From contig NZ_SMMC01000207.1 in assembly GCF_009711445.1 (NCBI RefSeq), positions 1-52,749 of the forward strand: DNA of 52,749 nt, given 5' to 3'. A program made the translations under genes and the position numbers. How positions within the stretch are numbered: position 1 is the first letter of the stretch; each line of letters starts with the position of its first letter. Source of the DNA: Curvivirga aplysinae (GTDB lineage Bacteria > Pseudomonadota > Alphaproteobacteria > UBA8366 > Aestuariispiraceae). The notes below the pieces were generated by a model. It was not told the DNA's origin, ran no database searches, and was given only the letters and a program-made list of their open reading frames with translations. Below, in pieces: positions 5,300 to 7,609 of this stretch.

Positions 5300-6316
5300 T
5301 TAAATCAAACCACGCTCAATCATTTTTTCGGCAATCTGTACCGCATTCAATGCAGCACCTTTACGTAAGTTATCAGCAACAACCCACATATTCACACCGT
5401 TTTCAACTGTGATGTCATCACGAATACGACTAATATAAACCGCGTCTTCACCAGCACATTCAACAGGTGTCACATAACCTTCGTCTTGACGATAATCCAC
5501 GACAACGACACCTTCAGCAGATTCCAATACCTCACGCGCTTTTAAGTGATCCATATCGTTTTCAAATTCAATATTCACAGATTCCGCATGACCTACAAAG
5601 ACTGGCGCACGCACTGCTGTAGCAGATACTTTAATGGACGGATCAAGAATTTTCTTGGTTTCTACAACCATTTTCCATTCTTCTTTGGTAGAACCATCAT
5701 CCATAAACACGTCAATATGCGGGATCACGTTGAAGGCAATTTGTTTTGTGAATTTTTCTTTTGTGATCGGATCATTCACAAAAATACCGCGTGTTTGAGT
5801 AAACAGCTCATCCATGGCTTCTTTGCCACCACCAGATACAGACTGATATGTGGAAACAACAACACGCTTGATTTTGCCTGCTTCATGCAAAGGTTTAAGT
5901 GCCACAACCATTTGAATGGTAGAACAATTCGGGTTTGCGACAATACCTTTTTTCTTCCAACCGTCCAAAGCTTCTGGGTTTACTTCTGGAACAACTAATG
6001 GCACGTCCGGATCCATACGCCAGAAAGATGTGTTGTCAATGACAACCGCACCTGCAGCAGCAGCCTTTGGAGAAAACTGCTCAGAAATTTTTGCGCCCGG
6101 TGAAGACAGAACAATATCCGTACCAGTGAAGTCAAATGTTGCTAGGTCCTGAACCTTGATATTCTTTTCATCGCCATATGCCACTTCTGTTCCAACAGAA
6201 CGTGAGGAAGCCAATGCTACCACGTCGTCGGCGGGGAAGTTACGCTCTGCCATGGTTTGAAGAACTTCTCGTCCTACGTTACCTGTGGCGCCTACTACTG
6301 CAACTTTATAACCCAT
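5300..6316 (-). CDS. asd: Aspartate-semialdehyde dehydrogenase
   Basis: A 338-residue cytoplasmic enzyme that reduces aspartyl-4-phosphate to aspartate semialdehyde with NADPH. This is the branch point to lysine/diaminopimelate, threonine, isoleucine and methionine. The N-terminal GATGNVGREVL binds NADP. The active-site cysteine is in NPNCSTIQ (about residue 131), and the catalytic His is in FVGHAESVN (about 241). VSTYQSVSGGGKEAMDEL is the family signature. Length is normal. The gene is preceded on its own strand by a 45-codon Lys/Thr-rich leader ORF and an intrinsic terminator (see those entries), which suggests control by transcription attenuation. Confidence 0.95.
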   Translation of the reverse strand: MGYKVAVVGATGNVGREVLQTMAERNFPADDVVALASSRSVGTEVAYGDEKNIKVQDLATFDFTGTDIVLSSPGAKISEQFSPKAAAAGAVVIDNTSFWRMDPDVPLVVPEVNPEALDGWKKKGIVANPNCSTIQMVVALKPLHEAGKIKRVVVSTYQSVSGGGKEAMDELFTQTRGIFVNDPITKEKFTKQIAFNVIPHIDVFMDDGSTKEEWKMVVETKKILDPSIKVSATAVRAPVFVGHAESVNIEFENDMDHLKAREVLESAEGVVVVDYRQDEGYVTPVECAGEDAVYISRIRDDITVENGVNMWVVADNLRKGAALNAVQIAEKMIERGLI

Positions 6317-6374
6317 TGGTCTGTCTTTCTTTTATCTAAACTTGTTACATTTCAATAAAGCATGCTGCACATAC

Positions 6375-6432
6375 AAAAAAACCGGAGTTTCTGGAACCCC
6401 GGTTGACCTGCTTTATGCAACACAAGAGTTCC
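6375..6432 (-). promoter_or_regulatory. Transcription attenuator of asd: terminator hairpin with competing antiterminator
   Basis: Read on the minus strand, the left arm AACCGGGGTTCC (6404-6393) pairs with GAAACTCCGGTT (6391-6380) with one mismatch and one wobble. Seven U residues (6381-6375) follow: a full intrinsic terminator ending about 59 bases before the asd ATG. A competing segment, GGAACTCT (6432-6425), lies 2 bases after the leader stop codon and can pair over 8 bp (two G-U pairs) with GGGGTTCC in the left arm of the terminator, so the two structures exclude each other. A ribosome waiting on the leader stop codon would cover GGAACTCT and allow termination. A ribosome stalled upstream on Lys/Thr codons would leave it free to antiterminate. 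The pairings are read from sequence; the regulation is inference by analogy with thr, his and trp attenuators. Confidence 0.7.
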
Positions 6433-6434
6433 GG

Positions 6435-6572
6435 TTAATACCGAGTCTTAGTTGTTTTGGTTGTCTTAATAGCTTTTACGCGAACTGGGGAAAGTGTTGG
6501 CGCAGCCATAACTGTCCATACCATCTGTTTAGCTTTTTCAATCACCGCAATCAAAACTGCCGGAGCAAACAT
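6435..6572 (-). CDS. Lys/Thr-rich leader peptide of asd (45 codons)
   Basis: A short minus-strand ORF that starts with ATG at 6572 behind a good Shine-Dalgarno (AGGGA, 8-9 bases upstream) and ends with TAA at 6435-6437. The peptide begins MFAPAVLIAVIEKAKQMVW and ends VKAIKTTKTTKTRY. The last 14 codons hold four Lys, five Thr and one Ile, all end-products of the aspartate pathway in which the downstream gene acts. Later in-frame ATGs at 6524 and 6509 are possible alternative starts, giving 29 or 24 residues. The terminator/antiterminator pair begins 2 bases after the stop, the standard spacing for ribosome-mediated attenuation. Alternatively it is a small protein that merely ends in a terminator. 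I know of no described family for it. Confidence 0.65.
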   Translation of the reverse strand: MFAPAVLIAVIEKAKQMVWTVMAAPTLSPVRVKAIKTTKTTKTRY

Positions 6573-6597
6573 ATTTTCGTTCCCTATTTGATATGCA

Positions 6598-6615
6598 GGT
6601 CATCATATGATGACC
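6598..6615. repeat. 18-bp perfect palindrome in the asd leader
   Basis: GGTCATCATATGATGACC is a perfect 18-bp palindrome. It lies between the candidate asd promoter and the leader-peptide start, about 40 bases downstream of the -10 hexamer. It could be an operator for a dimeric regulator or a 5' stabilising hairpin. No regulator can be named. Confidence 0.55.
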
Positions 6616-6656
6616 CAGTTACTTTCAGCCCAACTGGCCAAAACATCTTGCCCAAT

Positions 6657-6685
6657 TACATAGGGCGCGAGACAGAATGAATCAA
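6657..6685 (-). promoter_or_regulatory. Candidate sigma70 promoter of the asd leader
   Basis: On the minus strand, TTGATT (6685-6680) and TATGTA (6662-6657) are separated by exactly 17 bases. Transcription would start near 6650, about 78 bases before the leader-peptide ATG, and would include the 18-bp palindrome in the 5' untranslated region. Confidence 0.45.
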
Positions 6686-6778
6686 GCGCGTTTTTAAACT
6701 TTTTTCATTTTTTATCATGTTTCGCATTTCTATTGTAACATTATTACTCAAGGAAATAACAAGCAGGCTAAATTTCCC

Positions 6779-6807
6779 TTAATCTAGTGAACCATTTCAT
6801 GTATAGT
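6779..6807 (+). promoter_or_regulatory. Candidate sigma70 promoter of the binding-protein gene
   Basis: TTAATC (6779-6784) and TATAGT (6802-6807) are separated by 17 bases. The -10 box overlaps the GTG at 6806, so a transcript from here would not contain that GTG. This supports the ATG at 6842 as the real start. Confidence 0.4.
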
Positions 6808-6841
6808 GATTAGAAATAATAACAACAAAGCGAGCATCTTC

Positions 6842-7609
6842 ATGCGACTGTTTATCTCATCCATTTTTGTGTTTCTTTTTTCGATCCAAATTAGTATCGC
6901 CTCAGAAATAAAACAAATCCTTTCATCAGATGAGCCCTTGCTTAGCAAGAAGTTACCTGATGGCAGCTCAAAGGGATTATTTGTAGACTTCTTTCAAATC
7001 GTTGCAAAGAATGCAGGGCGAGAAGTCAGTGTCTCTCATCTTCCCTGGAAACGTGCTCAGAAAATTGCCCAAGAAGTTTCAGATGCGACCTTAGGCCCCC
7101 TAACACGCACGAGCAAACGTGAAAGTAAATATAAATGGATTGGCCCGCTCTTCCCCATGCGGATCACATATATGACAACTTTAGACCAACCCGTTGTAGA
7201 AAACCTCGACCAAGCAAGACGTTTAAAAGTTGCGATTAAAGGCGGAAGCGCAGCCGTTTATGCATCAAAGAAACATCAGCTTTCAACAAATATGGTGGAT
7301 GTCGTTTCACAACAAAGCTCAATATTAGAAATGCTAATTAGAAAGCGGATTGACGCCTGGTTAGTATGGGATGTCATCGCGCATCGTACAGTTCAAGAAT
7401 TCGATAGTGGTGCGCAACTGCAAGCTGGCTATACTGACGAGTTAGGCGAACTATATATGGCGGCCTCACCTTCGGTTTCTGACGAAGAAATCGCTGTTTG
7501 GCGTAAAGCGATGGAACAGGCAATAAAGGATGGCGCCTTAAAAGAGATTACAAGTAAGTATCTAGGTAGAGCATATACGCAAAACTCTTCATCCAATGTG
7601 ATGCAATAA
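6842..7609 (+). CDS. Periplasmic substrate-binding protein, PBPb (amino acid ABC transporter) type
   Basis: A 255-residue secreted protein. I start it at the ATG at 6842 rather than the upstream GTG at 6806, because this gives a clean signal peptide (MRLFISSIFVFLFSIQISIA, cleavage before SE) and the GTG overlaps a likely -10 box. The mature part has the type-2 periplasmic binding fold seen in many orphan proteobacterial proteins: KGLFVDFFQIVAKNAGREVSVSHLPWKRAQKIAQE, then LRVAIKGGSAA-like RLKVAIKGGSAAVYA, and a C-terminal WRKAMEQAIKDGALKEITSKYLG helix. No permease or ATPase is adjacent, so it may feed a distant transporter or a sensor. It is divergent from asd and ends at a bidirectional terminator. 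Confidence 0.75.
   Translation: MRLFISSIFVFLFSIQISIASEIKQILSSDEPLLSKKLPDGSSKGLFVDFFQIVAKNAGREVSVSHLPWKRAQKIAQEVSDATLGPLTRTSKRESKYKWIGPLFPMRITYMTTLDQPVVENLDQARRLKVAIKGGSAAVYASKKHQLSTNMVDVVSQQSSILEMLIRKRIDAWLVWDVIAHRTVQEFDSGAQLQAGYTDELGELYMAASPSVSDEEIAVWRKAMEQAIKDGALKEITSKYLGRAYTQNSSSNVMQ

Follow-up and report, generated by a model that had tools for sequence, protein, structure and literature searches.

The asd gene of Curvivirga aplysinae is very probably controlled by a ribosome-dependent (classical) transcription attenuator specific for lysine and threonine, as judged from its DNA sequence and that of its relatives. This reading is based on the anatomy of the leader region, its recurrence, the complementarity of the arms and the fixed position of one arm at the leader stop codon. 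The Asd product is the common precursor of lysine and threonine, and isoleucine and methionine are also products of the pathway. Leader peptides are known for the thr, his, leu, ilv, trp and phe systems, and the sensors usually known for lysine supply are riboswitches; both the specificity (Lys together with Thr) and the target (asd) are unusual for a classical attenuator. The features concerned lie in the window, by which we mean the whole analyzed stretch of 52,749 nt:

5300–6316, minus strand: asd, encoding an aspartate-semialdehyde dehydrogenase of 338 aa and the proposed target of regulation (NCBIfam equivalogs NF011456 and TIGR01296, both above cut-off)
6375–6404, minus strand: intrinsic terminator, with a 10-bp stem (6404–6380) and a U tract (6381–6375)
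6393–6400, minus strand: segment 3, GGGGTTCC, common to the terminator and the antiterminator
6425–6432, minus strand: antiterminator 5' arm (segment 2), GGAACTCT, 2 nt past the leader stop, a position relative to the stop that is conserved
6435–6572, minus strand: leader ORF of 45 codons, identified by translation and by Thr/Lys-dense ORFs at the matching place in relatives
6444–6476, minus strand: putative Lys/Thr sensing codons, K33 to T43, identified by leader translation and Thr/Lys enrichment and unique in the genome
6581–6585, minus strand: partial ribosome site, a Shine-Dalgarno-like AGGGA read from the sequence, 8 nt 5' of the leader ATG
6598–6615: perfect 18-nt palindrome, GGTCATCATATGATGACC, found by inverted-repeat search, 26 nt before the leader ATG
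6806–7609, plus strand: family 3 solute-binding protein gene, the divergent upstream neighbor

The leader ORF (6572–6435) encodes MFAPAVLIAVIEKAKQMVWTVMAAPTLSPVRVKAIKTTKTTKTRY and terminates in KAIKTTKTTKTRY directly before the stop codon, with four Lys, five Thr and one Ile within its final 14 residues. Its Thr/Lys density is the highest among the 1340 short ORFs of the window, and a search of the whole genome returned the codon run encoding TKTTKT only once. Thus, the leader is enriched in codons for end products of the pathway, as the leaders of attenuators are, and the same holds in relatives. Elsewhere in this genome, no comparable leader was found before hom, lysC or dapA.

The terminator, AACCGGGGTT-ccaga-AACTCCGGTT-TTTTT, is located 63 nt upstream of asd, between leader and structural gene as in an attenuator, and is the sole terminator detected on the minus strand between 6300 and 6850. 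Because the upstream gene at 6806–7609 is divergent, this terminator does not serve to end it. The terminator and antiterminator hairpins have nearly equal stabilities (−13.4 and −13.2 kcal/mol, respectively). Rfam covariance models, including those of the Thr leader and the lysine riboswitch, gave no match at the gathering score, nor did any appear in the region 6300–6650 at a relaxed threshold (E up to 5). All of the elements named in the preliminary description, namely the 45-codon ORF, its terminal Lys/Thr content, the stop, the arm 2 nt further on and the terminator before asd, are present as described.

In the proposed mechanism, a ribosome would translate the 45-codon leader while RNA polymerase transcribes the leader region. 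With both Lys- and Thr-tRNA charged, the ribosome would reach the stop codon and cover GGAACTCT, allowing the terminator to form and transcription to end before asd. Shortage of either Lys or Thr would instead make the ribosome stall within the KTTKTTKT run and leave GGAACTCT exposed; the exposed arm could then pair with GGGGTTCC, blocking the terminator so that asd would be transcribed. The spacing is compatible with such a switch. The leading edge of a ribosome is taken to lie ~13 nt downstream of the first base in its A site; at the stop codon (6437–6435) the ribosome would therefore reach ~6424 and cover the arm at 6432–6425, while one stalled at the T43 codon (6446–6444) would reach ~6433 and leave the arm free, as would earlier stalls. 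Translation of the leader in Curvivirga aplysinae, stalling and a transcriptional response to Lys or Thr shortage are thus predicted by this scheme.

To place the leader in a wider context, asd was located in relatives and other members of the class, and the upstream DNA of 214 alphaproteobacterial regions was extracted. A Thr/Lys-dense short ORF lies 60–350 nt before asd in 48 of the 214 regions, compared with an expectation of 0.25 per shuffled set and none on the reverse strand; most alphaproteobacteria sampled lack the leader. The leaders of the two nearest relatives end in TTAKKTTKTTKTGT and KTTTTKTKTTKTGR, that of another member of the window's family in TTKTTTKKTTTGV, and others in TTTTTTTTTKAKKLPE, TKTKTKKTTV or, among Rhizobiales, KTTTKTTTKTV. 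Over the last 16 residues, Thr is enriched 6.5-fold and Lys 4.3-fold, with no enrichment of Ile (0.5) or Met (0.7). The Thr and Lys content noted in the preliminary description is therefore part of the recurrent signal, while the Ile that it also counted lies outside it. On an Asd tree of 136 proteins the leader is clustered, yet its distribution requires 9 to 19 gains or losses. Terminators identified by a strict criterion follow 13 of 24 such leaders from outside Rhizobiales, compared with 24 of the 158 regions that lack a leader (p = 7e-5).

Support for an antiterminator comes from comparison across relatives. In the window, GGAACTCT can base-pair with the terminator's 5' arm, but this pairing is not significant from the window sequence alone (p = 0.06–0.13). 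Among 18 non-secreted lineages (representatives picked by leader and terminator sequence, with no formal phylogenetic correction), pairing of the stop-adjacent arm with the terminator arm of its own locus has an energy of −17.0 kcal/mol, compared with −12.7 kcal/mol for shuffled and −12.9 kcal/mol for swapped arms (own vs shuffled, Fisher p = 1.5e-7; own vs swapped, Wilcoxon p = 3e-4). Along the leader, complementarity is highest at the stop codon; the segment that best complements the terminator arm lies there in 12 of the 18 lineages (10% expected; p = 1e-8). The pairing between arm and terminator that the preliminary description had seen is hence significant by comparison, and an antiterminator that is exclusive with the terminator and maskable at the stop is indicated on the same comparative grounds. 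Compensatory changes, which that description had suggested looking for, were found among three sequences, those of the window and of the two closest relatives: the arm pairs are GGAACUCU:GGGGUUCC, GAAGAACCUC:GGGGUUCUUC and CGAACCUC:GGGGUUCG, and the pair adjoining their common GAAC core is G-C, A-U and C-G, respectively. These pairs were read by hand, since a MAFFT alignment of the three sequences misaligned the arms. Conservation of the Lys/Thr codons, the stop position and the pairings in many lineages collectively supports the attenuator reading.

A spurious Thr/Lys-rich ORF beside an accidental hairpin might account for the weak pairing in the window, but recurrence in many lineages against a near-zero expectation refutes a chance origin, whose probability we consider practically nil. 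A more substantial alternative is a gene for a small Thr/Lys-rich protein that has its own terminator and is syntenic to asd, with the asd promoter inside the 63 nt past the terminator. Similar-looking genes do exist in the order: small secreted proteins with a signal peptide and a Thr-rich tail ending in GG before the stop are encoded near and upstream of asd in relatives, at the loci L004, L010 (as two tandem copies), L011, L059, L163 and L168, and a terminator follows most of them. The members scanned gave no strong match in Pfam or NCBIfam. At L059 and L168, another, unrelated gene separates this ORF from asd, and for this reason ORFs of the signal-peptide type were rejected as leaders and removed, leaving 35 of the 48. 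The pairing signal persists after their removal. ORFs of the window's type have no conserved N-terminus, their N-terminal portions varying from group to group, and what recurs is their Thr/Lys codons plus, at the stop codon, an arm that complements the terminator; moreover, no promoter-like site was found in the 63 nt between terminator and asd. A protein gene of this kind is accordingly very improbable. The promoter search, which covered 6300–6850, also returned no sigma-70-like site upstream of the leader, and this counts against the attenuator reading. It is also unlikely, if somewhat less so, that a class-wide Lys plus Thr attenuator of asd has merged, in part of the order, with the gene for a small secreted protein, such that the exported peptide serves as the leader and its last codons as the antiterminator arm.

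The leader might also act through nascent-peptide or general ribosome stalling, Rho or an antibiotic-type signal, and not through the charging of Lys and Thr tRNAs. Lys runs can slow ribosomes generally, and several relatives have no U tract: the hairpin lacks one after 10 of 11 Rhizobiales leaders and, within the window's own family, at L007, L012 and L015–L018. The terminator of the window, however, has a proper U tract, and the order and spacing of Thr and Lys vary freely among leaders while their enrichment is retained, a pattern more in keeping with codon sensing than with an arrest peptide. We therefore regard this alternative as very improbable for the window. The same mechanism cannot be assumed for those family members and most Rhizobiales; at loci that lack a U tract, termination, if it occurs, must proceed in some other way. 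The post-leader hairpin of L007 and L015–L018 is very stable (CGGGCCGGGG...CCCCGGCCCG). Ten Rhizobiales leaders (L061, L064, L068, L072, L074, L085, L091, L094, L096 and L110) end in KTV at the stop, most of them in TTTKTV or TTAKTV; the GC hairpins downstream of these leaders are strong, in most cases have no U tract and lie ~63–76 nt before asd.

The Lys/Thr attenuator proposed here is reminiscent of the thr operon attenuator of Escherichia coli, in which thrL contains Thr and Ile codons: both have a leader peptide rich in end-product residues and alternative antiterminator and terminator structures, and both belong to the aspartate pathway. They differ in that the target here is asd, Lys would be sensed together with Thr, Ile would not be, and Rfam gives no match. 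The lysine riboswitch (L box) and the Lactobacillales asd RNA motif likewise place lysine or asd genes under RNA control; neither was detected in the window, where the putative sensor would instead be a translated ORF. A leader that reads the products of both branches, placed before the gene for the enzyme at the branch point, could give alphaproteobacteria a single node at which to tune the aspartate pathway.

A leader of this type has been partly anticipated. For Sinorhizobium meliloti, a 2023 study described the ORF SEP5, which lies in the 5'-UTR of an 'aspartate dehydrogenase' gene and carries six Thr and three Lys codons toward its 3' end; SEP5 was reported to be translated, as detected by Ribo-seq and Western blot, and was called 'possibly a leader peptide' conserved only in Sinorhizobium (PMC10117765). 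The downstream gene is probably asd, and SEP5 would then resemble the leader of the window in both codon content and location. The passages on SEP5 contain no terminator/antiterminator analysis (PMC10117765), and the Rhizobiales loci compared here mostly lack a U-tract terminator. Beyond this report, we found no other account of such an asd leader in the open literature. Although the preliminary description treated a Lys/Thr leader of asd as unfamiliar, the idea of a Thr/Lys leader had thus already been published for Sinorhizobium (PMC10117765). Our comparison supports the leader-peptide suggestion for SEP5, broadens it to numerous lineages within the class and contributes a predicted antiterminator. 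The proposed asd attenuator is widespread and largely unannotated. In many genomes the asd leader ORFs have no match among Pfam, NCBIfam or Rfam models, and the arrangement provides a rule by which to annotate them.

A TPR gene lies 116 nt downstream of asd on the same strand, and no terminator was found between the two; the earlier description of asd as monocistronic is therefore not established. Upstream of the leader, the palindrome GGTCATCATATGATGACC has a single perfect copy in the genome, making it a candidate operator through which a regulator might act on the asd transcription unit.
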